Part shown: positions 83-29,200 of the stretch, in pieces | Layout of the letters: each line of letters starts with the position of its first letter | Position numbering within the stretch: the first letter of the stretch is position 1 | Source: Apostichopus japonicus | Lineage: Eukaryota; Echinodermata; Holothuroidea; Aspidochirotida; Stichopodidae | Length of the DNA: 64,000 nt | Direction of reading: 5' to 3' | Assembly: GCF_037975245.1 (NCBI RefSeq) | Contig: NC_092562.1 | Location: 18,878,054 to 18,942,053 of the forward strand | Made by a program: the position numbers and the translations under genes | The notes under the pieces: model-generated | What the model was told of the DNA's origin: nothing | Seen by the model: only the letters and a program-made list of their open reading frames with translations | The model's database searches: none

Positions 83-245
83 CTAGAACAAACCATTATG
101 GTACTCAGAGGCGAACACAGGCGGAGATTTAAAGTGGCCAAGGCAATTGACAGCACAGACAGTGACATAGTAGCGCATTGAAGAACTGTTCACTGTAATA
201 ACGGAATAACTACCATCATCGGGTACAATAGGATAGACTTCATTG
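83..245 (-). CDS. cytokine-receptor-like gene, exon 6 (receptor domain 1, second half)
   Basis: The acceptor is TTATCACATAG. The exon opens in phase 2 and encodes the last strands of the domain (RYYVTVCAVNCLGHFKSPP), with TAG at 85-83. A possible internal phase-1 donor at 93-92 would end the exon at 94 and exclude the last codons and the stop. Confidence 0.65.
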
Positions 246-3200
246 CTATGTGATAAACAAAAAAAGAAATAGGTAACACAAGATACGTACTCATTATTAA
301 CAGGAAGCTGGACAATTTATTCGGCCCTTTAAGTTTCTGTGGAAATTAGCGGTTTTGCAACAAATAACTTCTTATAGGCCATGAAAACGTCAAACAGCAA
401 TACATGCACAATTAATAACTGAACATCAGGTCTCATTATGTGTTTGTGTCAATAGCAAAGACAATCATGAAATAGTATGTATGTGTGTACATATGGGTGT
501 ATGTATGTCTTTCCGTCCTCCAATTTAATGACTTTCAAAGATTCTACTGCTTTACACTAATTAACCAAAATGAAAACTTCAATTGACTGCAATCTCAAGT
601 ATTTAGCCAGACATTTATGCATCAAAATGTTTCCCAAACACAAAAGACTAAATTGTTTGCTGTTTTTCTTATCTCATCTATAGGTATATCTTATCTACTG
701 TGCCAGAGGCCAGCATTTTAAAGAGTTTGGAAACCAATTTCAATTCCAGTGGAATATACTTAAAAAGATGATCAGGCATTATCATGCCATGCATTTCGTC
801 TTCTAATGTTATATGTCAGATCATGTTCCCTTTTAGTTTGACCATTTAATCTTTGCGCTAAGTTTCAGATTGTGATTGATTCGGACAATTTCCTCAATAT
901 CATGATGTCAGGCAGGAGGCAGTGAACAAATTTATCAGGTATCGAATTGCAAAATGCTGGTATGCAAAATGGGTCCAGTTGCAATAGAAGTGTAAAGATG
1001 TATATCAGTTTTTGTACACAGAACAACCATAGTCTTTCATATGAGACACAAAGTCCATAGCCTTCAAAAGTGGCATGCCAAGATTTTTACACTGACAAGT
1101 AGTTCCCTGAGAGGTACTACTTACATTGTCCCGTCATTGTCTGGGGTGAAGTGCCATTGGTATCTAGTTTGGAAGGCATCGTAGGTGACTATGCCATCTT
1201 CATCATTAGTTAACTCATGCCATGTACAGTTGTAGATGCCTCTTAGCCGTGTCCAACAATCTGGGGCTGGGAATTTCCATTTAGAAGTATCTGTTAACAT
1301 TGCAAAAAGAAGGTACCAAAAAAAAAGTCCAATTTATTGTGTGGGGGGTGTCAAGCTAGTGACTGCATGGGAGGGGGTCTAAACACAGAAATTTAGCGAC
1401 ATAGATCAGTTCACTGGACTCTTTCTTTGATTGAAAGTGCTTATAAGTGCTTAAATATAAAAGCAAAACTTAGAGCAACAATGATGCTAGAATCTCAAGA
1501 CTCTGATATACATTTAAGACAACACAGCGACGCTGATATCCTTACTACACAGTGGAGTTTGGGGTCTGTAGAGTTAAACGGTGTGACAAACCTATACAAA
1601 TTAGGCCTCCTTTCAAACTTAATGTAACCTAATACTGATCACAAAAACAGCAAGCAATGCATGCCTTCTCATATCCTATGCCAAACTAATTGACAATCTA
1701 TGACACACTGCATCTATAAACCTTGTAGAAAACAATACAGAAGAAGAGCATGATTTGAATTGCCCCTCTTTTTTAAATAAAAAAAAAGGGACACACTACA
1801 CAGATGAAACCGTTCCCCCCCCCACCCCCCCTTCCCGTATCTTGTGAAGACTGCATCGACTCTTTGTCACGTCTCTCAAAAACACGTTGCCTATCTGTCG
1901 TACCTTTTGAAGAAGTCGCTTCCATCACCATATCATATGTATTGAGCCCATCCACTCATCTGTTCCTTTGAATTTATTTTCTTTCTTTCTTGTTTTCTCT
2001 TTCTTGCCCATGGTTTGACCAATTAATGGATGACTCATGCATAGGCTAAAGCCTTATATGTATCCCCAATGTTTCCCAGTTTGAGCATAGTACCAGTGTC
2101 TTTAGCTAACCGTGGGTATAGTTAGGGCGTTGACAAATGACCAAGGAGGGGAGGGGGGTGGGGGTGGAATGAACATGGTAAAAGTTATAACAAACGAGCA
2201 GGAACTGTTTCAGAGAATCCAATCCAATCCTGTTTCTGTAGGGGATTCTGCAGTGCGACAAGGGTGTACCTTAATACAGAAGGTCATTCTCATTTGCTAA
2301 TAAATTGGAGCGATGGGCACATATACATGCTATGTTTCCCCATGATTTTTTTCCTTTTCTTTGTCCAATAATTATTGCAAAAAGGAACACTTGAGTGCTA
2401 GAAATATTTAAGTACAGTAGCTTTCTTGAACTATTTCAACAAGTTGTGAAATAAATTAAGTTAATACTGTCTTTTTTGCAAGTTTATTACTTTCTTCATG
2501 TCAGTGTAAAGATTAATCACTAAGAAAAAATATGGTAAAAAAACAATTATCAAAATTTGCATAATATCACTGAGCTCACCTTTGACCTGTACTAGCTGGC
2601 TTGGTGTACTTCTGCTGTTGAGTAGGCATGAATAATCTCCGCTAGAAGCCGTGCTAACATTTTCGATTGTCAAATTCAAGCTCCCGTTGCTAAGGAGGTT
2701 GCCATCTTTGTACCATGCGACAGATGACCCTTCCGAGAGAGGAGGATCCGGTGGAAACTCTCCACAGTGTAAAGTGACAGTCTCGCCTACCTCATGAATG
2801 GACGGATCGCAATCTTCAAAGAGAAGAAATTAAAAATGTGAAGCATATGTGCAAAGAAAGCAAAAACAGTGTGAATAATACAAAAATATTATAATTTTGC
2901 TGTGGCTGCATGGAAGTTGATCGTTCAACAAAATTACTGAGAATTCTCTGAATCGGCTATCTAGGTCTAAACAACAGCTCAATGGACTGATTTGGTACTA
3001 AGGCGTGTGAAGATGCCGCAATTTTTTTGTTCAAATCTGGGCGATATGTTACAGTGGTGAAACATTGAAAAGAGTAAGATGAATGTTGGATGCCATCATG
3101 GCAATTCAACTGGAAAAAAAAAATGTGCAACTTGCTTTTCCATTATAATGTTTGAATCATTTACACCCATGTGCAGCTGCAGTAAGTTAACACACTAAAT

Positions 3201-6200
3201 ATATCACAGTTAAAGAATAAATCAACAGGAAGACTAAAAATAAGTAAAGTCAAGTTTTCATAGAAAACCGACGGTGGCGGTTGATGACACCATCCAAACT
3301 AAACACATGTGTATCTATTATATCTTGGGCTCGAAACACATGTGCATATATTATATCTTGGGCTCGAAACACAAGTGTATCTATTTTATCTTGGGCTCGA
3401 AACACAAGTGTATCTATTTTATCTTGGGCTCGAAACACAAGTGTATCTATTTTATCTTGGGCTCGAAACACAAGTGTATCTATTTTATCTTGGGCTCAAA
3501 ACACATGTTTATCTACAGTTATAGTCAGTTGGGGTAAAAAAAAACAAGGGGGTAGTTGGGGTAAAAAAAAACAACCCCTTTTTATCTAAGGGGAATATTT
3601 AGCCAAAGTTCCAATTTATTTTGGGTGATAGTCCTATATGTCTAGTTTATTATTATATAATTTCTGGAACTCTATGTCACTTCGCTGCCAATCACCGCTT
3701 CATCGAATCAAGCTAATGCTAAAATAGCGAAATTTGAAGTTTGTACCACATATCCGAAACTTTCTCCTGCATACCCAGCTTATATGATGTGGAAATTATT
3801 CCAGCAGTTACAGCATAGCAGTTAGTGATATTACACTCCCCCATGGTAGAATTACTCCAACTTCATTCACGCTTCATGGGGGGGCCTTGTTTTTTTTTAC
3901 CCCCAATAAATGATGTGAATGGGGTAAAAAATAACAAGTACTTTCCGGCTCCAATGTACTCCCTATTTTACCCGAATTGATTTTAGAGGTTAGGCAAATA
4001 GTTTTCATGTCTGTCATGTGTCAAAAATGTTAAATAATTGGGCAGAAGTAACTGAAATTGGCTCTACTCTAATGTTTCTACTATATGACACCACATTTGT
4101 GTAGCATCATATACACACTGTACAGTATGAATACGGCTGAGCATGACATATGACACGAGCCATCCATAATTACGAATTAAGACAATTTCACAATTTTTTT
4201 CCTTTTTCATGTAAAGGTAGTAGCTCATACTTAGATATAATTATATGCAAACATGATTTTAAGATACATTCATGAAGAAAATAGCTGTTTTCTAGCATTG
4301 TTTTTTTTTACCCCTGCATTGTTTTTTTTTACCCCGAATTAAGCAAATTTTGGGGGTAAAAAAAAACAACATTTTTCGCAAAAAACGACACTTTCCCTTT
4401 ACAAAAAAGTTATTTTTGTTAGATTCTCTTTAAGAGAATCCCACTCCACACACTTGGACATTGGAACCGAAACAATACCTCTTACTCATCAATTTTTAGA
4501 GCAAACTTTAGGTAAATTGTTTTTTTTCTACCCCACTTGACTATACTACCTTTGTTACTTGTATAAACCCTGATAACAGTACAGGGGCAACAGACACAGG
4601 GTGCATACATGTACCCCTTCCCCTATAGATCCCAAATTCAGTGAAATGCATTAACGGTGTCCCTTTTGATGAAGGCTATATGATGATTCCTTGCCATATA
4701 ATTTGCTCAAAATTCCACTAAACTGACTGATGTAGAAGCCAGCGAGTCAAATTTGTCCAAGAATTAAATGAGTGAGGATTACCAGAAGATGATCAGAAGT
4801 TAATCACCTCTTATTTGTAGCTCACTCACCTGTGTGCATATCGACCAATTAATTCACTGACGAGGACTTTTACAATATTGCATGTTTATTCTAAAAAATG
4901 TATTACAAACCATCATATATAGGCTATATCTAGGCCTACATGCAGCTGATTGCAAAAGGCCAGTGGGTAGACATGCATTCAATGGAATACCATTATTGAA
5001 GAGCTATATATTATATACATATTAAGCTGTATATTACAGTTTAAGAAAAACAATCCAACTAGTGACGCAGCTAAATCCGGTTGAAGAATCATTGTTATTC
5101 GATCTGCTTGACTGAAACCATTGATTCTGCAGACAGTATTCTTGTTTTCAAGGGATGCATTCAAAACTTCCCTTTACCTCAGATAATAACAATCATGGGT
5201 TGAATACTTTGATAATCAATATTTTGACAAAGGTTGCAAAATGGTAACAGGCAGTTCCTTTTTTTTAAATTTTATTATCATGCATAGATTGGCTTATAAC
5301 TTTGCCTGTACCTTTTATACAAAGCATTGCTTGTATACTGCTAACGTTATGTTGTATTGTATTGCCTATTGCACAAGAATAGTGTGTTGACGACGCACAG
5401 AAACTATATTCACAACCAATGAGTGCTTGAATCAATCGGTCACGACTCATAACTTGTGGATCGTTGGCATTTAACTTTATTGGAGACTTTCTGTAACATA
5501 TCAGGTCAAAATGTACATCCTCAAGAAAGCTTTTGATACAGCCAAGATTTTATCATTTTATGGCTTTTACAATTTAGTAACTTACATGAAACTACCACTT
5601 GTAGGAAACTTGATTCAACAGTATTAATGTTGCAACGATATTGTTACTATCGACACTGGCCAAAAAGGGGAATTTTAAAATCCCACTATCCACCCATACC
5701 AGTAACTAAAAATGAAAAATATATCTAACATTAGCCCATGCATTTGTGAAGGCACTTCCTATCATCGTTGGTCGTTCAATGTTGCGTCTTACTACTACAC
5801 TCTTAACATGACTGACTTCTAATATTAATATGAAAGATTCAATGTTTTCAAACATTTGATTCTTTCATTAATTCTTATTGAGTTCTCATTTGAAGCAAGA
5901 CTGCACCACTTTGGTGGAAGGAGCTACACAATTATAGGCTACTGCATAGCCTACAGTACATGTTGTTCATGAGATACGAACCATTGGTTTACTAGTAATA
6001 TGGACTCTGTTTAGCAGTTCCATTCAAATACCACAGCGGAATGCGGGGTTGATTTCTATCAAAATATTTCAAGCCAGCTCTGACAATAGCACGTTTGTCT
6101 CTAGGAAGCAATATCTGTTGTGAACTATCCGTAAAATGACGTAGATTTTACCCAAGTTGGAATATTCGGCAGATACCAATATAAACAATGCTAACAATCA

Positions 6201-9200
6201 GTGAGACACTCTCTTCATGAAAAGTCAAGAAATATGTCAACCCAGATTCCTTACCTTCTATTTCCTCTTCATCAGCGCCAAGAACGTAACAGGAATCCAC
6301 ACGAGCTGTGACAATGGAAACAAGATTTTTTTAAATTACAGTTCAAATGTCTGTTTTTATATTAATGTCAAGAGAATGTTTTATTCTTATATTCATGGGA
6401 CCGTACATCAAATCTTAGGTCACTTTGTACATGAAATATTTTCTTTATACAAACTTTAGTACTAAATCAGTAAAATCTTGAGTTTTGTTGCAAAATGCCA
6501 CAGGGAGGGTTACAACTGACTAGGGCTGCTTATGCTAAACAGTTTAATGTGAGGTTAATTGATGTGAAATTGTGTTTTTCCATATCAATTCCTTTCGCTC
6601 TTTCCAATGCAGCAATGAGCTGAAGCAAGAAAAACATCTTCAGCTTCCTATGGCTTCATCATAGAAACCTAACTTCAACTTGGTTTCTTAGCTTGAAACG
6701 GAAAATGATTGCTTTGTTAAAGAGTTGTCTTTCCAATGATCTAACTTTTCTCACATTCAAAGACAATCAGACTTGGGAGGGGGAATTAGAGAGAAAGACT
6801 TATCCAATCCGTTTAATTAGACTTCCCCTTTTCAATTTGCACAATAAACTATGCTCAACTGTTTTATAGTGCAGTTTCAACAGCATATCATTCCTTCCCT
6901 TTAATACAATAATAGTGACTACCGATATCCTTGAAATGAATTTGGAGAGATGGAGAAGTGTTTTCCTCAGCAATGTTACAATGATTCTAATTCATTGAGA
7001 TTTGCCACCGGGCAAGGTGTTGGCAAATCATGATTTCCTTGAAGTAAATCACTCCAAGTCACATCTGTGTAGCACTAGTATAACATTACCATGTCATGTA
7101 TGTACGTCCACTAATTGCAGGTTTTACGTTCAGCTAATTTGTGCTTAAAGAATTGATAATGATACATATTGATTCAACAGCTGTCCTCCTTGTGTAGATT
7201 TGGTACTAAATTACCTTGCAATAATTGTAGCAGGAATTCGAACAGGCAAAACAAGTTGAAGAGGCACTGGCCCTAACTTAGCGTTGTGTAGCCTGCAAAT
7301 TAGGCTAGGTCGGCTAACGTTAGTCCAGGCCTAACTTAGGCTAGGCTAACTTAGGCCCCAATGTTACGCCGGCCGCATTTAAGTAGGCCGAACAGTAGGC
7401 CTAAACCTTTATAAGTACTGATGAGTTGACATGTTCGTTCTTTGCATAATATTGACGTATATTAATATTATGTAACACACAATATATAAGTGATGAAATT
7501 TTAATTACCTGCAGGAAAATAGGCAAGGTATTGGTCCACAGCCTAATGTTACTGTGGGACTGGGAGTCTAGAATTGAAAATTAATACTACTACTACGTGG
7601 CCTAGCGGTTAACTACTCGACATGTGACACCACAGGTATTAATTTATGTGTTTGACACTGGTTCTGGTTATACGTTAGTCGATCGATAGTGTATTTGGAG
7701 CATAGAAGTTACACATATGGAGCGCCAAAATTTATCGCAGCATTAGAAACATTTGAAGAATTAAAATGGAAAGTGGTTTGCTGAAGTGACCATTGGACCA
7801 TATTGGTTTTTTGAGTAATGCACATACTAAAAAATTTGTTTATTATTTAGAATCACGGAATATGCATGAACAAGTTTCTTGTTACGGTAAGTTTTCATAA
7901 CTTCTCGCTTGACAGTCATTTGCCCTTTATAATTCGGAGGTGGGGTATATATGAGGTACTTTTCGGTAATATTCAAATGCTTTTTCCCCTTGTCAATCGG
8001 TTGATTTTATGATTTGCTGCAGTGTTTTCTATTTATTGTAGGAGCCAGGCAAAACTTCAATTTAAATGATTTCTAGGTTATTCTCACCTTAATGGAATTG
8101 AAACAGAACAGCTTTGAAATTATACAGATATCTGGGGAAAAAAACGTTCATCTTACCATCCCGGCATCGTTACATGTATACAAGTCAAAATAATATGATA
8201 CATACCAGACGCAGTCACCGAGGTAACACAGCACCAGAGCACTATAACCCGACTCCACGTGGATAGACTTTCAAAGCTGTTTGGTTTCTGAAAATGTAGT
8301 AAAAAATATGAGATTTATTTTAACAAAGCAGCTTGTTAAAAGGCATGAACGTTTCCTTTCCTTCATAAAACTATGTCATAAGTTGCTCAATCATAGAGAA
8401 ACGAAAGTCACCCAAGAGCCCGGGGATCAAAAACCAACTGCAACTTGGCCCTTATTCAATCCCTGTCCCCTTACATCGTTACGGTTACCATGTGATCATG
8501 ACGGTGTACCGAGAAGGGGAATACAACGAATCCCTTCGAAAGGAATAGACAGTATAGGCTACAGGTTTACATAGCCTAGCTTTCAGATTTGAACAAGTAT
8601 TGTTGAATGAGATGAGGATTACGCGACGCTTTCTTGCTTCCGTGAAACCACAGACTGCGCCAGGCTCTGACCCTCTCTTTGCAAAAGAAACCCCTTACAA
8701 TATCCAACAGTGACATTATAAAAGACACTATAGAACGAAGTTTCAAATCTAAGTTTTCAAGTTGATGTATAACTACTTCAATTTGAAAGGAACACGTACA
8801 AGAGCAGTTCATAGTTAGTATATAGTCCATATATAATATCACAGGGTTTAATGAAGAGCAGTGCACTCTGTCATTCAAATGAAGTGCATAAAGGACATTT
8901 AATAAATGCTAAAAACAGAACGATCAATCTGGGGAGGTGGATCAACATACTATAGCAACGTCTATAGGCCTATATGTGTTTCACAAAAGAACTTCCCAAT
9001 TACGTCATTTGAACTGTTAAATGGATACAAAGTCTTCCTGGACCTGTTAAGAATGGGTGTCCACTGGGGCACAGCACCATTTATGTTATGGGCTGGGCCG
9101 GGGATCAGATGTTATTTCGTCTTTGGCGAGGGGTCTAAGGGGAGGTGGTTCTCTCTGAAAATATTTTGAGATAAAAAAATGGAGCCTGCTGTTTGGGTAA

Positions 9201-12200
9201 GGTATGTAGCATTACAAAATAGGTTTTTTTTTTTGCATTGGGGGGGGGTGGCTTATGTTTTTTTTACCAAATGTTGAAAAGGTCGAAGCTAGGCTCACGC
9301 AATTGAAAAGGAGTCACAAATTAAACAGCGTTTTTGTGACACATCAGGTCGCAAACGCTTTTGCCAAGTCAAGCCTGCCAGATATAACGAAGAATAAAAT
9401 TGCGATTGACCGAATCCCACGAGAACCAGCTTTGTCCGAAGTAATGGTAATTAATTACAACTAAGCCATTATAGTTTTGTGTAATTCATTCAAAGGATAT
9501 AAATGTATCGCCCATACCCTAACCGCACCGCAGACTTCCCGGCTGATCAGGACACTGATCAAAACGTGGCAATAGTTTTGAGTCGCGTCGGCTTCGGTAG
9601 GAACATGTAGCGTTTTTTTTTCGACAATGTGCGGTGATTCACGTCTAAACCGCGCAGTTTTAAAAATGTAACCAATCACAGGTCATAACATTTGCATGTG
9701 ACCTAAACGAACTCCGGTCGTGAACAGCAAACCAGTCATTTTTGTGCCAGGCCGGATCGGTCGATCAGTGGGGCGTGGTTCAGTTATGAGTCCATAGGTT
9801 TAGTCACGGCAGTTGAAAACTCGGGTCACGGCGGTCGAGTTGAGTCTAGTCATGCCGTGATTAGTCGAGCAGCGTCAATTAAACCACATGCATGCATAAC
9901 CGTACTTACAATAGGAACTTAAACTTTTCGACTCTTTCCTCGTTGTCGGAAATGAACGGACAAACAAATTGCTGTTGCTATGGAATCATAAAGTACTCGA
10001 GCGGACGAGAACACTTTACAACACAAAATGGCTTTATGATTAATAACTGAGAGGGGCTTACTGGGGCCTCGTATGTCTTGACAAGGATCACGTGACAGAC
10101 ATTTTCTTAGCGACTAAACATGAGATTCCCTCGAAAACATAAAGGAGTCGTAATCCTCGTGACTTACATATCGGTGAACATAACAATTATTAACTCGGCG
10201 CTGAGTATAGGCCTACTTGACACTTTACTACCACCTTCAAGCTCCTCGGTACAGTGTTATTGGTGGCTCGCGACAACCGGACTGCTGCCGTTGTCACGGT
10301 TACAACTAGTCAGTGTCCTACGGACAGGTTTTTGCTGAAGGATTCCTCGGAGTATCTATCCGTAAGGCTGTTTTTACTGGGAATACCGTCCTCGCATGTG
10401 GAATCAGTCCTATCGGGGCCAAGACTGCTCGCAACGATTTGCTATAGATCGCTCAATGCGAATTTATATAAATATTATAACCTCATATTATAACCTCTGT
10501 GAAGGGTCAGGAATAGTATACTTATTACTCTGCCATTTCAGTTGGGGAGGTGGGGAGGGGGGTGGCGGTCTCTCAAGTTTGTTTAGACGATGTTCGCAAT
10601 TTGGAGGTTTCTATGAATAAATTTGTGTAAATCAAGAATAGCTTAGGCTCGTTTTTCCCTTTTCCTTTACTCCATTAAGCAAACACGATAGGTCAGAAAA
10701 GATGCATGATATTTTTAATTATATTTTTGGTACATGCATGGCCTCATTTTGATAAAAAACAAGTTCAAAGAGTCAGTATAGTTTGAGGTCAACAGAGATC
10801 ATAATCTGAAGACCCATATAGTAAACACTATAAATTAAAAAGCATTGGCTCCATTGTGTTCATGACTAGTGCAAGGATCCACCTTGTAAACAGGGCGACA
10901 TAAATATTTATCTATCCATTCGACTTTATATATTTGGGTCTTGTTCACGTAAACTGACAAACATGTTGCGTAATCCCTAATTATGTAATCCCTATACATA
11001 TATGTATAGGTATTACAAAGTTAAAAGACGTTTCCATCTTTCGACTTTTTATTATTAGCCTGTTTTTTAGTTTAGAGCAATAAATATGCTATACGGACTT
11101 GCCATTGCGGTATCATTAAAGACAATGATTAAATAACCATGCCTTCTAAACACTCCGTGAATTTGGATTTCAAACCGATAGAAGGATTCCCGAAATTAAA
11201 CAAAATATAGTGAGACCTCGGAATATTGAAACATCTGTCGCAAAAATGGTAAATAAACGGTATGGATGTGTGAATGTGAGTGTGTGTACTCTGTGTGTGT
11301 GTGTTTGAGACTGTGAGGGGTGGGATTGGCACGGTAGGAGAGGGGAGGTGACAGGGTGATAAAGAAGCGGCAACTTTCCAAACTAATGCTTCGTAGGTGA
11401 TGTAAGTTTGAATGTGTTCTAAAGAAAGTTTTAGGCCTCAACGAATTTCAGTAAAGAAATATCCATAGGCCTCCCAGTAGGCCTTGCACCGTGCACGGTG
11501 GGAAGTTCCTGCTTCCATTAAACTTTCAAGAATGCCTCGAAACAGTTGTTAGAGACTCAATAATTCGCCGAGTTTGACGAAAAAGTCTTAAGATTAAGTT
11601 CGCTTTAACATTTTTTTTTAAAGGGACATGAGGCGGGGGGGGGGGGACGATCGTCCGAAGTCTTAAGTCAATCATTTGGACATTAACAATCGAAATTTCG
11701 AATTTGAATTTCAAAAATCATGACCTTTCATATCTACAGTTGAAATGTTGAGATTAGAAGTCGACATTTGGATTTAAAAGCCGAAACGTTGAGAATAATT
11801 AAAAGTGGATCATTTTAAAGGTTTTATTTTCGTTTTACCACGTCCGTTTATAATAAACCACCGTGTTTTACCCCTCAGGCTTTCATTGAGCATAATTTAT
11901 TTAAACAGATTATTGACTTATTTTGATTAAATATGTCTATTTCATGCTAATTAAATCCCTTAACAATTAATATCGGTCATAGCCAGACCTATATACATCT
12001 CCTTTCCAAATATCAGTTGACTTAAAAATGGGGTAATTTTCGAAATATAGTTTGCAATGTATGAAAAGGTATTTACAGCTAATATTAAAACTAGTCGGAC
12101 GAAAAATGCCAATGATTGAACGAGGCAAACTAATAACACTTGCTCGTAATATTGGTCATATAATTAATCTTCTCCCAATGTTACTCCATCATCTAGGATT

Positions 12201-12563
12201 TCATAATAAGAAACTCAGCGATCCTGTTAGAAAAACTGACTTCAGAGAGCGAATAATGATCAAAACGTTATCCTATTTCCTGCGAGGGTACGAATCTATT
12301 TCAGTCTACTTTGTTGCCAAAAATGAGTTGCATAAGGTAATATGATGTATTCGTTACAGGTGGCCAAGGCCTTCAGTGGCTTCCTTACTGGTTTCGAACC
12401 TCTGGACAGACAATCAGGCCATAGCCCATATAGTTGCTTAGGGGGTCCGCATATAAAGCGCGAGGCCCGTGTTCGAATCCAGGTGGAGGCTGGAAGTTTG
12501 TTTGCACTGTTCTGGATTTTCCCACTCATTGCAATTAATATATATATTTATATATGTATATAT

Positions 12564-12597
<34 letters not shown>

Positions 12598-13720
12598 ATC
12601 ACCACCGAATATCCTGTTTTATTTTATAAGTTTAATTCTTTTACTGCCATTTCATTTACACCAGGGTCTGTTCAAAGTATATCTCTTTCAAAATCCGGCT
12701 TTAGTTTTCATAAATGATTTCGATTTCTCTTTTCCAAGTATAATATTACCATTTCGAGGGAGAGGAAGTCATTAAACAACTTTAACAGCTCAGCTCTGTA
12801 TGACCATGGAGCTATAAACCTGGGACCCAGGTTTATAGCTCCATGGTATGACTGACTGACTGACAACAAGTGTGTGTTATAATAGTGTACCATTTGACAA
12901 GTAAAATGTTTTTTATGGTTTTTCTTTTAATAAAATGAAAGCGAGCACATGAATGAATCGAATTATTTGTCTTGAAACAAGTTTCCATGTCGGAAATTCA
13001 ATCACAAATATGATCTCAAATCTTGGACCTTGATTGTTTATCATTCGACCCCCCCCCCCACCCAAAAAAAAAAACACACTTAATGCGTTGTTAATTAAGA
13101 CTGAAGCCTATTGATCAGGCATTTTAATATCCAAACAACTGACTAAATTCGAGACAAAGAGGAGATGTTACCAATACATGTTAAAATTTCTAATTTTCAT
13201 GTTTTTTTCTACCACGTCATCTATCAAACTTGAAGGAAATTATAAACAAAATTTAAACGAAATGCTAATCATTTCATCAAGTTAAAGGTACTCTGTCGGT
13301 CCGAAAACATTTAGGCCCACTACCGAGACTTTTGACGTGAGGAGTATAAGTTCAATGTATAGCCACGACCTGCTAGACTCACCGCTGCCGATGCTCAGAA
13401 TGAAGTAAATCTATAAAGGGTTAGGCTATATAGACCTAATGCTTGAAGAAATAATCTGATCTTATTTTCGTCCCACGACCCAGCGAAATTTATTCCGCGA
13501 CCCACAGTTGGGACGGTTCCCAAGAATAGAGCGACGCTATATTGCAGAGCTATATAACCCATACCGTGCACCAATCCAAACTAAACTGTTTTTCTTACGA
13601 TCTATGGGGGAATAAACTTAATGACTCAGAAATTTGAGTCAAACAACAAATAAAACATACAGTTTATATTCTTATGTGCATATAATACATCACACTCACC
13701 ACCGAAAATGTTTTATCCAT
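83..13720 (-). CDS. Ig plus class I cytokine receptor-like protein (six exons)
   Basis: Coding exons in transcript order are 13720-13700, 8287-8206, 6305-6255, 2813-2580, 1290-1125 and 245-83. They total 717 nt, or 238 residues plus TAG. Residues 1-34 form a signal peptide with a hydrophobic core near VIVLWCC. Residues 52-129 are one Ig domain with the C, W, D-x-G-x-Y-x-C pattern. Residues 130-238 start a fibronectin-III-like domain with C141-x9-C151-x-W153, the signature of domain 1 of class I cytokine receptors, and end in a strand like YYVTVCAVNCLGH. The Ig-then-cytokine-receptor order and the residues around CTWHE and VNxLGH recall CNTFR and IL6RA by family knowledge. No WSXWS domain and no membrane segment are visible. 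A weak phase-1 donor (GTTTGT, 93-88) could splice to exons beyond the window, so the stop at 83 may be intronic read-through. Ligand and function are unknown. Confidence 0.72.
246..1124. other. intron 5 of the cytokine-receptor-like gene
   Basis: About 880 bases of AT-rich intron. I see no coding segment, tandem repeat or recognisable mobile element. Confidence 0.6.
1125..1290 (-). CDS. cytokine-receptor-like gene, exon 5 (receptor domain 1, first half)
   Basis: The acceptor is TGTTAACAG and the donor GTAAGTAG. The exon is 166 nt, phase 1 to 2. It encodes APDCWTRLRGIYNCTWHE, which holds the C-x9-C-x-W signature, followed by strands up to TPDNDGT. Confidence 0.75.
1291..2579. other. intron 4 of the cytokine-receptor-like gene
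   Basis: About 1.3 kb of intron. A C-run lies near 1815-1831, and a G-rich stretch (GGGGAGGGGGGTGGGGGTGG) near 2147-2166. Nothing coding is seen. Confidence 0.6.
2580..2813 (-). CDS. cytokine-receptor-like gene, exon 4 (Ig domain)
   Basis: A single 234-nt 1-1 exon encodes a whole Ig domain. It contains VTLHC, then VAWYKDG, then SGDYSC, followed by the donor GTGAGCTC. Symmetric phase-1 Ig exons are the standard shuffled module of animal extracellular proteins. Confidence 0.85.
3301..3515. repeat. 33-bp minisatellite, about 6.5 copies
   Basis: Head-to-tail copies of a 33-bp unit read ACACAAGTGTATCTATTTTATC then TTGGGCTCGAA. The central four copies are nearly identical, and the outer copies have ATG or ATA variants. 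It lies in intron 3 of the cytokine-receptor-like gene. Because 33 is a multiple of three it stays open in several frames on both strands, which explains the spurious reading frames here. Confidence 0.9.
3531..4534. repeat. cluster of GGGGTA9CAA / TTGT9ACCCC motifs
   Basis: Eight copies of a motif close to GGGGTAAAAAAAAACAA or its reverse complement occur within 1 kb, in both orientations. They lie near 3532, 3558, 3888 (inverted), 3921, 4299 (inverted), 4319 (inverted), 4355 and 4517 (inverted). Intervening sequence is unrelated. Opposite copies could pair as hairpins. The nature of the element is unknown. Confidence 0.7.
4535..6254. other. remainder of intron 3, no recognised feature
   Basis: AT-rich intron of the cytokine-receptor-like gene. 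I see no coding exon or clear repeat. Confidence 0.55.
6255..6305 (-). CDS. cytokine-receptor-like gene, exon 3 (acidic linker)
   Basis: A 51-nt symmetric 1-1 exon lies between acceptor TTGTCACAG and donor GTAAGGAAT. It encodes a short acidic linker (DSCYVLGADEEEIE) before the Ig domain and contains one cysteine. Because it is symmetric, skipping it would keep the frame. Confidence 0.6.
6306..8205. other. intron 2 of the cytokine-receptor-like gene
   Basis: About 1.9 kb. The stretch 7265-7405 is built from short TAGGCCTA / GGCTAGGC motifs (AGGCTAGG, AGGCCTAACTTAGG), a composition seen again at 56520-56830. Nothing else is recognised. Confidence 0.6.
8206..8287 (-). CDS. cytokine-receptor-like gene, exon 2 (signal peptide)
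   Basis: The acceptor is ACATTTTCAG and the donor GTATGTATC. The exon is 82 nt, phase 0 to 1. It encodes a hydrophobic run (VIVLWCCVTSVTAS) typical of a signal peptide core and cleavage region. Confidence 0.65.
12420..12545 (+). mobile_element. possible tRNA-derived SINE fragment
   Basis: A tRNA-like head contains AGTTGCTTAGGGGGT (A-box-like) and GTTCGAATCC (B-box-like) about 45 bases further on. It is followed by an unrelated body and then a TA-rich tail. A second TTCGAA loop in the opposite sense lies just upstream at about 12393, so the structure may be compound. Confidence 0.45.
12536..12600. repeat. TA-rich microsatellite
   Basis: Runs of TATATA with interspersed TGTATA, directly after the SINE-like segment. 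It may be that element's tail. Confidence 0.85.
12803..12847. repeat. 45-bp perfect palindrome
   Basis: Two 22-base arms, starting ACCATGGAGCTATAAACC and ending in its exact complement, flank a single A at 12825. A short TGAC repeat follows on the right. The direct repeat GTATGAC occurs at both edges. Confidence 0.9.
13700..13720 (-). CDS. cytokine-receptor-like gene, first coding exon
   Basis: Seven codons (MDKTFSV) are followed by the strong donor GTGAGTG in phase 0. The next exon opens in phase 0 and completes a signal peptide. This is the only ATG-donor combination I found upstream that joins in frame. The exon is tiny and the distance to exon 2 is 5.4 kb, so another first exon is possible. 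Confidence 0.5.
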
Positions 13721-19410: not shown

Positions 19411-20225
19411 GCCATTGTCTCTCTGAGTGGCCATATATTTATATTAACATGCATGTTTTTTCCAATATGTGATATAACCGGATGGCTTTCGACCGCGCAG
19501 GCGCGCTGGCACATTAGTTTTCCGTTCCCCCCCCCCCCAAAAAAAATGGTAAAGTTTTTGTGGTGGGAAGAGAGTGCATCTCGGAGGGCAGTGGCATGTG
19601 TTAACTTGATTTGAGGGGCCAAACCACAAAATCACCTCAAAGTGGATCTTCTATACACTCTGAAATTCCATGTTTTGAATGTTTTTGCAAAAACGTTTTA
19701 ATTAGTATTTTTTCAACTTGATCAGGCACTGTATAATTATCTTGTCTACTAACTTACATCAGGGCACTTTTTAAATGACAAAAAAGTGCACTTTTTAGTT
19801 CCTAAAATGTAATACGGGAAAAAAGGGGGCTCTTCTCATTTATTGAAAGGGACACGAACTCATAGCAGTACTTTTACCACCCAGCGCGTACCGTTCAGCT
19901 GATTTCACTTTTTTTTTTACAAGGTTACGTAAAGTAGCCAATTTCTTTTAAAATTTTCTCGCGAACTACTAGGTTTTATGAAATAAAGTTATATTTTTGG
20001 AAAACAAATCCTCCAAATTAGCTATCCAATAACCTGGAATACCTCATGGCAGGACCACTTTAAGACAATGAAAGACACTGTCAAATACAGTATGTATATA
20101 CATGTAGGAAGAACAACATTAAGTTCAGACTGCCTCCCGTGAAGTTCACGTAAACAGTACCACTAGAGCTTCTCACACAGTCACTCTCACAGCTCGCAAC
20201 AATACTAGTCACTACAACTTTCAAG
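19411..20225. other. intergenic and likely TMEM8 5' UTR
   Basis: GTCTCTCTGAGTGGCCAT is tandemly duplicated at 19398-19434. A C-run then A-run lies at 19528-19548. The last 100 bases before 20226 are a plausible 5' leader. No clear TATA box was identified. Confidence 0.5.
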
Positions 20226-20295
20226 ATGGAAACGGAAAGGCTGATAATCGTTCTGGGAATTTTCCAACACTTTCTTGTGGCTGAAACTTTTACAG
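20226..20295 (+). CDS. TMEM8: TMEM8 exon 1 (signal peptide)
   Basis: It starts in the context TCAAGATGG and encodes METERLIIVLGIFQHFLVA and on, a signal peptide. The donor is GTTCGT, phase 1. Confidence 0.85.
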
Positions 20296-23200
20296 GTTCG
20301 TTACTCGCGTAAAATGTAACAAAGGCAGCAATTTACACTGCCGTACCGGACAAACGTGAATGAACGGAGGTTTTATTAATTAACAGAGATTGAAATTATG
20401 TGTAACTTGTAACAGTGATCGGTTTTCGCGTAACTACTACCCACTACATTCTCTGTACATAGTGTTCCGTAACATTCTTGCTACGTTCATGGGTTTACGT
20501 TAACTAACTGCGCGTGTTATAATATAAGTAATATAGGCTAGGCCTAGTTGCATTGATAGGTAGGCCTCCTATAGGTGCCGTGTTTTTTAGTCAAATAGTA
20601 TTATTTACATAGTTGTAATTTGACACAATTTCAAGGATTATTCCACCCATTAGCAGAATTATACCGGAAACTTAAGGTCATGGAGTCTATCGTTAAAAGG
20701 TCTAGATGGTCTGTCACTTCAGCAGTCAGTCTTTGATCAGAGAGTCTCAACATGGCTTTTGTCAAAAAAGGTCTTGTCTCACTAATATCCTTGAGTTTAT
20801 GGAAGATGTAACAAGTTCACTTAATAGGCAGAGGTCTGTAGATGTTGTGTTCCTGGATTTCCAGAAGGCCTTTGATAAAGTTCCCCACCAGCGTCTTTTA
20901 CTTAGGCTGAAGAGCATGGGTGTCATAGGGAATTAACTGTCTTGGATCGGGAATTGGCTTGGTAATAGGGAACAGGGGGTGGTACTTAAAGGCTGTGCTT
21001 CTTCTTGGCAGAACGTTACTAGTGGGGTTCCACAAGGGTCTGTATTAGGTCCCTTGTTGTTTGTTGCCTATATAAATGACATCGACGGAGATATTTTGTG
21101 TAAAGCTAAGAAGTTTGCTGATGACACCAAATTGTATTCTGAGGTCTCTTCCAAAAGCGATTCTGAGAAATTTCAAGCGGATTTGGATAAGATTTTTTCC
21201 TGGTCTCAGGGGTGGCAAATGCTTTTTAATATTGATAAATGTAAGGTAATGCACATTGGTAGTAGTAACCAAAAGTTTACATACAATCTTAATGGTGTGG
21301 AGTTACAGGAGGTCTCTGTTGAAAGACACCTAGGTATCTACATTGACTCATCTCTGCAAACTTCTAAACATTGTCTTGAAGCTGCTAAAAGAGGTAATAG
21401 GGTTTTAGGTATGATCAAGAGGAACTTCAGATTTCTGAAAGAGGACATCGTAGTTAGGCTTTATAAGCAGTTGTTTAGGCCTCATCTGGAGTATGCTGTG
21501 CAGGCTTGGAACCCTTACTTTGCTAAGGATAAGGAAGTACTTGAAAAGGTCCAGAGGAAGGCTACTAGGATGATTAGTTCCTTAAAGGGGGTTCCTTATT
21601 GTAGGCGGTACAACTGTTGAATCTCACCACACTGGAGCTTAGGAGGTTACGTGGGGACTTGATCCAGGTTTTCAAGATTGTGTATGGTTTCGACAATTTA
21701 TCCTTTACCGACTTTTTCTTGTTTGCTAACAGTAGTTGTACTAGAGGTCATTGTCTTAAACTCCAAAAGTCACATAGTAGGATTAATATTCGGCTTAACT
21801 TTTTTTCTAATAGGGTTGTGAATGAGTGGAATGGTTTGCCTGAGAAAGTTGTACTTGCAAGTAGTGTGAATGGGTTTAAGAATGCTTTGGACAAGCACTT
21901 TAAGCATTGTAATCGGGTCTGAGTGTCTGTGTCTTCAGTTTTTTTCTCTCTCTATAGGGTCCTTGATGGGGACTTAAGTGTCCCTCCTGATCCTTTTTTC
22001 TACTAAACTAAACTAAACTAACTTATAATTAATGTATCGCGAAACTGGGGAATTTTTCCTTGCTTTGAACAGTTTGACTCCCAACTTTCACAGACACAAG
22101 CATAGGCCTAATTCTTTCTATTTCTGGAGGAATCTGGTCAACCCATGATGAAATCATATAGCTGAATTGATAGAACTAAATCATAAGCAAAAGCAGCAAG
22201 ACCGTTGTCACCATTATCTTTTAAAATAACATTAATGCCCTTACTACTGTAATACTATTAATAGTTTACTGTATACCATCATACATGTAGTTGTCCATAT
22301 TATGTGACAATCTAGCCTCCTTTTGCCCATTCACATGTTAAATAAATCTTATACTTATATGCCCAGGGCCCTAAGCCTTTATGAACAACAGGTAGGACTA
22401 GTGGCTTAACCCACATTTTGGAGGCCGAATTGCAACATAAACTGAATCCTGCTTAAGTGCCATACTCTTAAAGTTAAAGTTCAGTTTAATAGTAGAAAGA
22501 AAGAATCAAGAAGAGGGACAAATAGGCCTAGGCTTATGTTAGACCCTAAGTTCAAGGTAGTCAGTATAGGCCCCAAATTATAGCATGCTATAATTGCTAG
22601 AAGTTTTCCCAAAAAATGGTTGAGAGTGCATCAGGTTGGTCGGTTTTCATGTCCAGGCTCAATCTTGGGTGACTTTTCTTACAAAGTATCCCTTTAAGAG
22701 TGTGTCCAGACAAAAGTTCATTCTCATTTTATAGGCAGACTTTTCTGGGGGTTTTATAGCCTGATCTTAATTCTCATTATCATCATCACATAACGGTAGA
22801 CCGTCCCTCACTGTGTAAGTTGTCTCTGTCAGTACAGGTAGATACAATAGCCTTCAATGTGTCGTTTTTTTTTCATTAACCGGCTGTCAAACTTTCAGAT
22901 TGGATGACGTTAACAAATTATTAGCTGGTACACGTTTTTAACCCTATCGTGTCGAATGAACCTACGACTGAAACAAGTAAACACATGTCGTTAAAAATGA
23001 TTATGCTTCTCTTTTTTTTCTCGATATAGTCGATTTCGGAGAGCAGTACAACTCCCTCTTGTATGTTTCGGAGTATGAGAACTACGGGAGCATCAGTCTC
23101 TTCCGTTTCCATATACCGGAGGCGGTCGAGGAGGCATGCTGGAGCTTCATGATGAACAAGACTGCATCATGTCCAGACCGAGATATCTACATGTAAGAAT

Positions 23201-26200
23201 ATAATATCTCCCAAGTTCTCGGATGTTCTGGTTTCCTTTTATGTTATTAAAAGTATTTTCTTAGCCTCCTCATTGTCCTCATCCCCCTCCCTCCCTCCCC
23301 CCCCCCCCTTATGAGAAAAAAATAAGTATAATGCGTCTGGGCTGTGGAGTTTACACGGTTGTAGTTGCAAAATTATTTCTGCCAAAGTTATCATCTAATT
23401 CAACCCAAGAAGATCTGAATGCCACACCAACTTAGCTTTTCTTTTCAACTGCACAAAATACAAAGAAGTGATATATATATGTGATAAATCAATGTCACAT
23501 GTAAACCTATAGAAGAAATTCCTTAATGGCAAGATGCCAGGTCATTTGAACTTTACCATTCAGAGACTTGAGTCAATTTCCAGCAAAAAAGTCCTAAAAT
23601 CAGGACTGGAGTTAAGTCCCTAGCTCGAGTCATCGGTCATTCGTCCTAAGCTGTGTATTAAACGTTATAGATGTATTGCCATACTTCAGTGATTAGTTTA
23701 TACTTTTGAATGAAATATTCCAGAATCATCATCTTTGATTAAAATCATAAATACTGTATATCTTGGAAAACAGAACAGAAAAATATCAATTGAATTCATA
23801 AAACAGATTACTCTTTGGGATGAAATTTGTATTAAGGAGCTCAATTTCTGATATTGGTGTTCAGGGCATTGAAGTATGGTATGCCCGAATATCTTCACGA
23901 CCTTATCCAAGAGCAAACAACGGATAGACCTACTCGTTCCCAATACCTCTATCAACTTACTGTTCCTGTGACACGCACGAGAACCTTTGGTGATCGCAGT
24001 TTCTGCTATTCCGGCCCCGCACTTATGGAATTCGCTGCCAGTCCATCTGCGGGAAATTGATTCACTTGAACAATTCAAACATGCTATTTAAACTTACTTA
24101 TTTTCTAAATGCTACACACATCTGTAAAGCGCATTGAGCAACCTTTAGGTTGGATTCTGCGCTATATAAGACTGATTATTATTATTATTATTAATTGTTT
24201 CGATGCCCCCATCTTCTCTGTGACTGCTTCCAAGTATTGCATCTAGTTACATCATTGTAGTCTAGTTTTCAGTGTTCAGTGTCAGAGCAGATCAGTGATA
24301 AAACCAGAACATTATCATCCATTGGGGGGGTGGGGGTCCACTGACTTGGGATCCATGCCTTCGTCCCATGTCCATCGACAGTCAATGAAAATGTTCCGTC
24401 GGGAGATTTTTTCCAAAAGTATTTACTAACATTTTGTAAGCCTGCACTTAGACCTAATTGAAGCCCTAATTTATAGTCTAAACTACGCCCTGGAATGCAC
24501 CACTTGATTCATGCCACCCCACCCCCCCCTTCCCTCACCTATTTCAAATGTTTCAAATTTCATTTGCATTTATTAGCATAACTTTGCATTTATAAATAAC
24601 TATGTAGACCTAATTTATAGTCTGAAGATGCTTCAGAATGTGCCATTTCATGTCTAATATCTGAAACTTTCGACTGAGGGGGGGGGGGGCATTGGCAGAA
24701 AAAACCTCTAGCCCTTCTACATTGGAGTCACATTCAAGGAACCCACAGTCCCACCACACCTAATATAATTTATAAAATTTATTAGCCACTTATAGCCATG
24801 AAGGTTCATGCAATCATGCTCATAACAAACTCAGACATTGAAATTTCTAATTTGGTCCTCCTCCTCCCCCCCTCCCCCTCTTCCCTATTTGAAATCCTCT
24901 CAACTTTTTTTTCTTGTCTACTATCTTCACTCTTCAGATCGCTACATCTTGGTGGCCTGCCAATTGTCAATCCTTACAACACATCTTTTCCGGACAGTAC
25001 CGAGTTGAGGCACGCTAGCGGTTACAACGTTACATTCAATACGTCCAGCACTCAGCTACTTCCCAAGGTCTCTGTACATGGTCCTCAGCCTGGGGACTGG
25101 TTCATTATTGCATACAGGTTAAAGGAAGACATGGACAAAATTGATCAGAAGGCAAGTGACCGACCTAAACAGATTGACAATGGGAGAAAATGTGTTCTTT
25201 TCCGAATCTTTTCCCGAAGTCTAGTCATGGCTGTTTGAAGGAGAGAAGGGGTGTGGGTGTAACTTACTTTCACCAGATAAGCTCTTTTTGGAAAATCAAG
25301 TTAGTGGTCTGAGTTATAGTCATGGCTATGTTCCCCAAACTTTACATCCTAGTATAATCTCCTTAATGATTTTTCAAAGCCTAAAGCATCATGTATGTTT
25401 GTATGTATTTTAGCTCCTCCTGCAAGCAGGAACTCGCGAAGAAGCCTCATTGGCTTATCAAAGCCACAGGCTGACCGAAATCAGTCTCTTACATTCATAT
25501 TTAACGTCCATGATGATGAATTGTCCATTGTCAACAACTCTGTAACTGGACGACATACATTAATCTGCGAGTTACTCGAACCTGGGACCTTATGATTGGA
25601 AGGCACCGGCGTTAACCACTGAGCCAGCACTCCACTCATCACTCCATCATGGGTACAGTGAAAGCAGAACTTACAAACCTTGCCCTTCACTTTGTTCTGA
25701 CCCATAGACATCGTGGTCTGAAAAGAATTTTGATCAAATTTTAGTGGCCACTTTCCCATTATCCTGTCCCTTCTTCATCCCACCACCCTAATATCCCATC
25801 TCACTGAATTACTATAAAATCTTACTTTTAACTTCTTGCCTCAAGGATTTTCATAGCATAGAAGTTTTTCATAGAAGTTGTCATAGAAGTTTGCCATAGA
25901 CATTATTCATAGAAGTTTTTTACATATAAGGTTTTCATAGAAGTTTTTTACATATAAGGTTTTCATAGAAGTTTCCCATAGAAGTTTTTGGTTCCTTGCT
26001 AAAAGCAAAGGAACCTATGTATTCAGGTTGGCGTGTGTGTGTGTGTATGTGTGTGTGTGTGTGACGCTTTAGCTTGTAAGCACGATAACTCAACAAGGGA
26101 TTGACTGATTATGATCAAACTTGGTGGGTGGGTGGCCCATAGTGAGTAGATGAACCCTATTGTTTTTGGTGCCCACAAAGGTCACCAAAGGTCAGTTATG

Positions 26201-29200
26201 GTCCAAAAACCCAAAATACTAAAACTGCAATAACTCCCAGTGCCAATGTGCGACAAGGTTGATATTTTGGGACAAGTTGTGAACTGGTTAGGGGAACATT
26301 TTGAAACTTAACGGTCATGTGATCCAAGGTCACCAAAGGTCAATTAATGATAAAAAAACTAGTATTTTTGTGATAACTTGAGAAGGAACTGTCCGTTAAG
26401 GTTGGGAGTTGCTTCAATGTAATCCAGTTGTCAACCCGCATCTGGGTGACCCTGACCTCCATTTGACCTCTGGTGACCTTTTCGTGTTTTGGGGATTTTT
26501 ACAGTTTCGTTGCTATTTTCAGATATCAAAGGTACCTTCTGATCATAAATGTCAATAGGTTGACCCCAGTGTGACCTTTGTGTGCAAAGTTATACGAGGT
26601 CAAAGTTAAAAAATATTAATGAGGTCACGGGTCAAACGTGAAAAACTCCCAAGTTGCAATAACTTGGCTACTATTTATTGGAATTTTGGTATGATGATAT
26701 TGGTAGATAGTCTCCACACACTGATGTGTGTTGCAATTGATATCATGCATGTTTATAAGGGGGGGGGGGCCTAGCATTATTTCGTTATGAAAAGTTTGTA
26801 TGCACAATAACTCAACAAGGGAATGACCAATCATTACCATACTTGGTGAGTGGGTGGCCCATAGTAAGTAGATTAATCCTGTTGATTTTGGTGCTCATTT
26901 CATGAATATTAATGAGGTCATGGGGTCAAACGTGAAATACTCGAAATTGCAATTACTTGGCTACTATTACTAGTCGGAATTTCGTCAAACTTGGTACGAT
27001 GATAATGGTAGATAGTCTTCACACACTGATGTGTGTTGCAATTGATATCAGGGCTTAGCATTACTTTGGCAACAAAAGTTTGTGAGCATAAATTACTGTT
27101 GTTGTATTAGGGCTTTGTTAGAAATTTCCCTATGAATGGAACTAATGAACAGCAGCAAGGAACCATGAAATGTTTTTATTCTGGTTCATAGAAGGTTTCC
27201 ATAGCAGTTTGTCATAGAATAATCAAGTCTGATATTTACTGATCATATACTTTTTATTTGTCTCGTGTAATCTGCAGGGTCTGGGCAAAGATTGCCGATA
27301 CACTATACAACCCACTCTGGTGTACAGTCAAGTTTTGGATATCCCGTTACTGAGTGAACTCTCTCATAATGCTTACGAATTACCAGAGGGTGCAGACTAT
27401 GCACTATTCAGGTACCTTTTTTTTAAAACCCTTGGAGGATTCTTTGATATATTTTTGCTCATACCAAACATGTACAATCTTTTTCTGCCAATTTGTAGGG
27501 ACGAATTAATCTTGTAGATTCAGGTTGTATGTGGTCCATTTCCTATTCTTTTCTTGTTTTTTTCATAATTAGTTATGATAATGATTATTGTTGGGGTGGA
27601 AAAGTCTTTAAAGTGGAATATCACAGTGTTTGAAAGGAACGAAGGCTAAATAATAGATTCAATTCACTATGAACCAGTTATAAAAATTTGAAATCATGCA
27701 ATTATATCGAGAACACGGCTGCTTTGGTCTCCGGTCACTGAACCATGTGGTTGTGCTTTTCTTGACTCTTGCATTTCTGAAACCCTTTTCATTTCCAGTT
27801 GTCTTTGCTACAATAGGTTTGTCTTGTTCATTCAGTCCAAGCGCTTTGAGGTCCTTCAGTCTTTGTGGCAATCCTCTATTTTCGATGTACAGAAACATAC
27901 CTGAAATATCTACCTATGATACCTCACAATATCTCATACACTGAGCAGATTTACTGACAGTATTTATTGTTCTGCTCTGAAGATATTCAATGCGCACCAA
28001 AACCGTTAAATAAATTTTATACTAAAATATTTTAATATTTTATGTACAATTACATACTTTGTAGACTTTATATTGGATATGAGGGCATTTATATATTTTT
28101 GTACGCTTTAATATTTTGTCTGTACATTTTATATTTTTGTTCATCTCATATTGTGAGTACATTTTCATATTTTTGTTCACTTTGTTGGAACGTTTTCATA
28201 TCTATGTATATTATATTACGTCTTATACTGTATGTTGTTTACAATTTTTAATGTTTTGAGCTCTTGTTATCAACCAATTTCCATTGTATTTTTATATGAT
28301 TGGCTGCCTACCTACCTACCTACCTACCTATCTACCTACCTATCTATCTATCTACCTACCTATCTACCTACCTATCTACCTACATCAGTAGTATTGAGGT
28401 TCTGCAGCTTTGCTGCTCCAGTTATTTGTCATTCCATACACATAACAAATTACTCTGATCAGCTCTGTGTGTGCAGTTATTTGTCATACCATACACATAA
28501 CAAATTACTCTGATCAGCTCTATGTGTGGGAATGTCAGCGATGTTGATTTTACACATGGTTCAATGAATTATTGCTCTAAAGACAGAAACACTGATGGTT
28601 ATATATGCTCTTGTCATTAAACAATTGTATCTCATAATATATCTCAATATATCTCCCCCCCAAAAATAGCCTGAGTGCCTACTCAGGCCTTATTTCATTA
28701 ATATCCTTTCACAGTCATCATCCAAAACCACAGCTCCCCACGATATTGTAACAATTTATAGATAACGATCATATGTAACAAATTCATTCAGCGTTGTTCT
28801 TTCCTTTGATTTGGGAGACTGAATTGATTATTCTCGGGCAGATTTAATCTGCGACATGGAATCATTGATAATGATGGCGTATAGGCATGTTGCAGATGGA
28901 CTAGGTGAAAAGTGCCCTGGAATATTTCTCATATTACATGTTTAGTCATAAGCTTTTAAGTAAGACTCTAATTTGAATCCATGTACATTGTTGATATTGT
29001 TTTCATCCTGTTCTGTTATTTTGCACCCGGTCTTCTTAACTACGTAGATACCAGACCAAATTGACAACTTCGCTCATAGATTTCCAAGTAAGCCAGTGTT
29101 CCGGCCAACTACAGAATAAGACCCTTCATGGGCAATGTCCTCTGAACATATCGTTGGGTGCAGGGAGCATCCCCATAACTCAGCCCCCTCACAGCTGTGA

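Follow-up and report, generated by a model that had tools for sequence, protein, structure and literature searches.

Receptors built like vertebrate gp130 (IL6ST) are the closest described systems. In gp130 an Ig domain is followed by D1, D2, FN3 domains, a membrane span, Box 1 and a tail with tyrosines, and the gene described here, from the sea cucumber Apostichopus japonicus, encodes the same succession. The number of FN3 domains differs, being three in gp130 according to the available portion of PMC2914635 and one in the present gene. Unlike gp130, this gene lacks the second D1 cysteine pair, the WSXWS motif and YxxQ, and it has repeats in its tail. The Drosophila receptors Domeless and Latran (PMC2914635, same portion) are, like it, invertebrate signalling receptors of gp130 type; Dome has three FN3 domains and a STAT site in that source, in contrast to the single FN3 and missing YxxQ found here, and its CHD is contained in one exon, as stated in the accessible part of PMC1963337, as against four exons in our gene. 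The gp130-like gene of Ciona, as presented in the same part of PMC1963337, shares with ours the Ig-CHD-FBN-TM-Box 1 plan and a CHD composed of several exons; it was reported with the signature CHD motifs, two of which are missing in our gene. In the accessible text of that paper the CHD is defined by C-x9/10-C-x-W-x26/32-C-x10/15-C plus WSXWS, and WSXWS is described as variable in GHR.

The purple sea urchin was stated in 2012 to have no apparent cytokine receptor signalling system (PMC3296744, available part), and gp130 has been dated to molluscs (PMC8226699, likewise in part). A Strongylocentrotus purpuratus 'IL6R' appears in a tree, near deuterostome IL6R, in the accessible portion of PMC13203501. 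Because this echinoderm receptor has been published, the kind is already known, and the gene studied here is a divergent form of a receptor kind already in print. The two are set side by side by description only, and the S. purpuratus 'IL6R' may correspond to R3, one of two relatives described below, rather than to our gene. No published account of the gene in A. japonicus was found among the papers listed in a literature search conducted mostly outside subscription journals.

Exon structure of the receptor gene

The DNA analysed (the window) is a stretch of 64,000 nucleotides, C2:18878054-18942053, where C2 denotes the contig holding it; the genome that was scanned comprised 671,581,487 bases in 35 contigs. 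The receptor gene lies at the left edge of the window and will be called the window gene. The initial annotation had joined six exons by hand, and this observation is confirmed as a predicted model: all six are present on the minus strand, and the five junctions and the sixth donor have AG/GT borders with matching phases. The phases proposed (1-1 for Ig, 1-2 and 2-x for D1) were borne out by these borders, and the proposed signal peptide and single Ig domain, followed by D1, were found in the joined exons. The extent needs a small correction: the exon said to reach position 83 exists, but it stops at 94, with the weak donor GTTTGT.

The gene is longer than these six exons, which make up its front half, and it crosses the left edge of the window. 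The sixth ends 94 bases from the edge, and beyond it lie seven more in-phase exons, located in a 40 kb flank of which about 15 kb of the minus strand was inspected as frames. From the window and the flanking genome together, 13 exons were predicted on the minus strand, which join in phase to encode 988 residues. All junctions (12/12) of this predicted model have AG/GT borders and matching phases, and the model runs without a stop or frame break. The exons are as follows (window positions for exons 1 to 6, contig positions for the others).

Exon 1, 13700..13720, minus strand: start codon and first 7 residues, MDKTFSV; phase 0 donor GTGAGT; tiny, the least certain exon
Exon 2, 8206..8287, minus strand: signal peptide, hydrophobic at about residues 19-33 by hydropathy; phases 0 to 1, AG/GT
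Exon 3, 6255..6305, minus strand: short linker ahead of the Ig domain; phases 1 to 1
Exon 4, 2580..2813, minus strand: Ig domain, residues 52-129; phases 1 to 1
Exon 5, 1125..1290, minus strand: first half of D1 with C-x9-C-x-W, residues 130-184; phases 1 to 2
Exon 6, 94..245, minus strand: second half of D1 (YYVTVCAVNCLGHF), residues 185-235; phases 2 to 1; weak donor GTTTGT
Exon 7, C2:18877347-18877498, minus strand: D2a
Exon 8, C2:18875745-18875898, minus strand: D2b
Exons 9-11, C2:18874265-18874344, 18871959-18872091 and 18871388-18871489, minus strand: FN3
Exon 12, C2:18870569-18870711, minus strand: membrane span and Box 1
Exon 13, C2:18868304-18869800, minus strand: tail and stop

The weakest borders are those of the exon 6 donor and of the tiny exon 1. 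GC content was 0.448 in the exons vs 0.367 in the introns. It is because of the seven in-phase exons outside the window that the finding rises above chance, the C-x9-C-x-W signature being weak alone.

Two minor features were noticed by eye within the gene. One is a tandem repeat with a unit of about 33 bases in an intron (window about 3300-3510). The other, located between FN3 exons 9 and 10, is a frame with NIGNYICYSYDC (C2:18873188-18873436, minus strand), which looks like the last part of an Ig domain and might be a relic, an exon not in use or a chance occurrence.

Domains and motifs of the predicted protein

Read from its N-terminus, the predicted protein has a signal peptide, then Ig, D1, D2 and a single FN3; a membrane span comes next, with a Box 1-like motif and the tail behind it. 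In Pfam searches the fn3 model matched with an E-value of 1.8e-13 and Ig_3 with 9.6e-6, the latter under the cut-off; within E up to 10, neither D1 nor D2 was matched by a class I receptor model, and the gene had no match in NCBIfam, a prokaryote library. The FN3 is a single domain spread over three exons, and no further one was seen by eye to the left of the window among minus-strand frames of at least 40 aa, introns included.

The first cysteine pair of D1 is kept: CWTRLRGIYNCTW (residues 141-153) has the exact C-x9-C-x-W spacing that had been claimed for it. The pattern C-x9/10-C-x-W occurs in 4 of the 726 stop-free frames of at least 40 aa in the window, CWTRLRGIYNCTW included, thus the motif alone proves little. 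The second pair (W-x26-32-C-x10-15-C) is absent from the window gene; the first cysteines past W153 are C215, 61 residues further along, and C219, the two lying 3 apart. WSXWS is also absent at the end of D2, where LYSEDTS stands in its place. Having the first pair only and LYSEDT for WSXWS, the protein is not a full class I member by strict motifs; judged from its sequence it appears to depart from class I, and it is described here as a putative receptor of gp130/Domeless type. The loss of the second pair and of WSXWS, taken with the single FN3, suggests that the lineage is divergent and may have a ligand of its own.

The membrane span shows up in 19-residue hydropathy windows, with starts at residues 447-454. 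Just past it lies the proline-rich, Box 1-like motif KKKLFPDVPEPS (residues 473-484), whose PxVPxP we take to resemble that of gp130. Shuffling the tail of the window gene 100,000 times gave a hydrophobic residue followed by PxVPxP within 40 aa past the membrane 7 times; a looser proline pattern turned up in 56 of 20,000 shuffles. The window gene also has the motif EIFDEL, which is EIFDDL in R3.

The tail has 498 residues, 20 of them tyrosines. Its motifs include YMTM, presumably of PI3-kinase type, YLSL and YVDL, which we assume to be STAT5-like, and three copies of GYVPNK; in both the window gene and R3, YMTM is followed by S/A-P. No YxxQ STAT docking motif occurs in the 988 residues. Three repeats of 78-79 residues each extend from residue 715 to about 940, every one with D[CS]Y[VI] and GYVPNK, and pairwise dN/dS values between them were 0.43, 0.51 and 0.79.

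Relatives on the same contig and matches to solved structures

A query made of the ectodomain and the membrane-Box stretch found 40 places in the genome at E up to 10, ten of which are within the window gene. Since the best of the other 30 had an E-value of 0.025, no close copy of the gene was found. Two weak leads were neighbours: one of the 30 places, C2:4486865-4487164 (E 1.49), and a PF09240 match at C2:4457158 (0.776, below cut-off). Another PF09240 candidate, on contig C9 (1.84, below cut-off), was rejected after nothing receptor-like was seen in the surrounding minus-strand frames of at least 48 aa. Inspection around the two neighbouring leads revealed two further receptors, R2 and R3, in a tail-to-tail arrangement (C2:4.45-4.49 Mb).

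R3, C2:4474949-4487166 (from the Ig exon), minus strand: Ig, D1, D2, two FN3, membrane span, tail with YVRQ and PYMTMAP
R2, C2:4454586-4468824, plus strand: complete four-cysteine D1 motif, WSNWS

When D1-D2 of R3 was compared with the PDB set (177,635 sequences), gp130 accounted for the ten best of 101 rows (best 5.3e-17), and CRLF1 and the prolactin receptor came after it among the best 60 of the 101. In Pfam, D1 of R3 stayed under every class I cut-off and D2 exceeded the cut-off of Interfer-bind; the cysteines of D1, counted by eye, follow C-x9-C-x-W-x28-C-x8-C. By these matches R3 appears to be a clear gp130 relative, and it is unlike the window gene in its two FN3 domains, the YVRQ in its tail and the clear gp130 match itself. 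D1 of R2 matched the prolactin receptor (2.3e-11) and CRLF1 (4.9e-10) in the PDB, exceeded the Pfam cut-offs of EpoR_lig-bind, IL6Ra-bind and LIFR_D4, and has the same phases as D1 of the window gene. Its D2 exon is frame-broken in the assembly and a signalling tail could not be made out, so R2 may be decayed, a pseudogene, or misassembled. Genome queries with R3 and R2 yielded no more members at E < 0.05, and the receptor counts given here are lower bounds.

Gene structure is a stronger link between the window gene and R3 than the direct comparison of their D1-D2 sequences. In both genes the phases are 1-2-1-0-1 across D1-D2, the membrane exon running from 1 to 0, and overall the phases of R3 equal those of the window gene for the Ig, D1, D2, first FN3 and membrane exons. 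The splice borders of R3 were partly picked to fit the window-gene pattern, although the scan offered a single choice for each of the D1 and D2 donors. Class I receptor genes presumably have the same 1-2-1-0-1-0 ladder. The ladder of the window gene and R3 also equals the one (1-2-1-0-1-0) that the available part of PMC8863823 gives for IFN-upsilon-R1, a class II receptor gene, and the splice pattern of the Ciona gp130-like gene, according to the accessible text of PMC1963337, resembles that of GP130 and is kept, in large part, across class I.

Direct alignment of D1-D2 between the window gene and R3 scored 2.6 bits, with 58 of 2000 shuffles as good, and 1.9 bits in the reverse direction (101 of 2000), which is not significant. 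With the Ig domain included, 15.8 bits were obtained in both directions and no shuffle was as good (0/2000); Ig-D1 against R2 gave a comparable result (15.7 bits, 0/2000). The membrane-Box-EIFDEL stretch scored 9.6 bits against R3, and again none of 2000 shuffles reached that score; this control is weak, as shuffling breaks the hydrophobic run. The scores against R3 and R2 may thus come partly from generic Ig likeness and from this run. A two-sequence BLASTP comparison of the window gene with R3 extended over 354 columns at 23.7% identity (E 4e-6).

Comparison of D1-D2 of the window gene with the PDB returned 25 rows at E up to 10. Chains of the class I receptor family ranked first and made up 18 of them: two of IL-27 beta (best 1.1e-4), 13 of IL-12 beta (best 4.9e-4), and one each of IL-12 receptor beta 2, the thrombopoietin receptor and the leptin receptor, IL-27 beta and IL-12 beta being, as we assume, members of this family. 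The remaining rows were five generic FN3 proteins and two unrelated ones. Coverage was partial: IL-27 beta aligned at query positions 64-154 of 208, and for IL-12 beta the aligned part was about 40-55 residues long and confined to D2. No gp130 row appeared at E up to 10. As the 18 rows represent five molecules with partial coverage and do not include gp130, the support from D1-D2 is real but modest. The membrane-Box stretch found no receptor in the PDB, its matches being three rows of cytochrome oxidase at E of about 6, and a query with more of the tail had no match.

The Ig and FN3 domains of the window gene look generic. Ig plus D1 matched VEGFR2 and Fc receptors best, via the Ig domain, and the whole ectodomain matched receptor phosphatase F best (8.9e-12) and then ROBO3 (5.3e-8). 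These matches could be taken to indicate an ordinary Ig/FN3 adhesion or guidance receptor in which the D1-like motif is coincidental, a reading with which the four frames carrying C-x9/10-C-x-W, the absent second cysteine pair and WSXWS, and the non-significant D1-D2 likeness to R3 would also agree. However, the whole-ectodomain match is due to FN3 similarity, D1-D2 alone ranks class I-family chains first, and the intron phases in D1/D2, the proline-rich box past the membrane and EIFD(E/D)L are common to the gp130 relative R3, so that we consider such a receptor unlikely. A best match to ordinary Ig/FN3 proteins without the cytokine-receptor disulfide pattern had been named in the initial annotation as an outcome that would speak against its reading; this outcome half holds, such matches being best for Ig plus D1 and for the whole ectodomain and the second cysteine pair being absent.

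It is very improbable that the model mixes two genes or describes a decaying pseudogene. The model was predicted from sequence, its weak points are exon 1 and the donor of exon 6, and R2, elsewhere on the contig, has a frame break in its D2 exon; against this stand 13 exons without a stop or frame break, junctions that are in phase throughout, and dN/dS values below 1 in the tail repeats.

Proposed identity, signalling partners and neighbouring loci

Alpha receptors (CNTFR, IL6RA, IL11RA) are defined by the absence of a signalling tail. The initial annotation had proposed, for an invertebrate-looking genome, a gene like class I cytokine receptors, with Ig followed by D1, and this part of it stands; the likeness to the alpha receptors does not. 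A binding-only receptor of that type would accord with the Ig-D1-D2 order and could take the form of a short or soluble splice product, but this order is common to gp130 and is therefore no pointer to alpha chains, and the in-phase membrane exon with its Box 1-like motif, followed by the 498-residue tyrosine-rich tail, leaves that reading hardly any chance.

In our view the window gene probably encodes a single-pass signal-transducing receptor of gp130/Domeless type, in divergent form. Our confidence is lowered by the partial PDB matches of D1-D2 and by the weak shuffle control for the membrane stretch. Ligand binding, JAK/STAT coupling and the dimer partner are what we infer beyond the observed gene structure, domains, motifs and relatives. 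An extracellular helical cytokine would bind to Ig-D1-D2, and the receptor would work as a homodimer or as a heterodimer with R3. Box 1 would hold a JAK, which would phosphorylate the tail, and the phosphotyrosines, if the motifs have their usual meanings, might recruit a STAT5-like factor (YLSL, YVDL), PI3-kinase (YMTM) and others (the three GYVPNK).

As regards candidate partners, exons of a STAT gene were found at C4:25122506-25122601 (25.12 Mb), with matches to STAT_alpha (6.7e-10) and STAT_bind (5.7e-6), both over the cut-off; its DNA-binding stretch presumably is STAT5-like. A search for JAK with PF17887 found nothing in the genome, and all controls were silent too. A JAK2 kinase query matched 24 places, and 63 residues of it, used as a query of their own, matched 62; nine loci were inspected (seven places) and none was a JAK.

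With at least three such receptors on one contig (R3 matching gp130 at 5e-17) and a STAT gene in the genome, the origin of IL-6-type signalling can be tested outside chordates, and the window gene, R2 and R3 bear on the age of this cytokine-receptor family of immune signalling. The window gene itself is a natural experiment, in that its receptor has the gp130 plan but lacks both WSXWS and the second cysteine pair of D1. A tentative proposal, which we hold to be possible and somewhat doubtful, is that class I receptors split into several lineages before chordates, with at least three represented in this genome: the window gene, the gp130-like R3, and R2, whose D1 is nearest to the prolactin receptor and CRLF1 in the PDB. 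The window gene would then combine a simplified ectodomain with a multiplied tyrosine module and would serve a lineage-specific cytokine.

Several other features were observed in the window and elsewhere in the genome. Three frames of a gene at window positions of about 20225-37308 on the plus strand contain DUF3522, which exceeds the Pfam cut-off in one of the three; the gene presumably resembles TMEM8/PGAP6. Its likely start, located by eye, is about 6.5 kb from the first exon of the receptor gene, on the opposite strand. A LINE-like element with reverse transcriptase fragments lies at 20706-21919 on the plus strand (RVT_1, 1.1e-13, at 20937-21617). On the minus strand, 45049-49630 contains an F-box frame (over the cut-off) and a WD40 frame (below it), and is likely an FBXW-type gene. 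On another contig, C23:15071571-15108623 (plus strand) contains many similar FN3-like units in a row, partly about 510 bases apart, with weak matches to the FN3 of the window gene.
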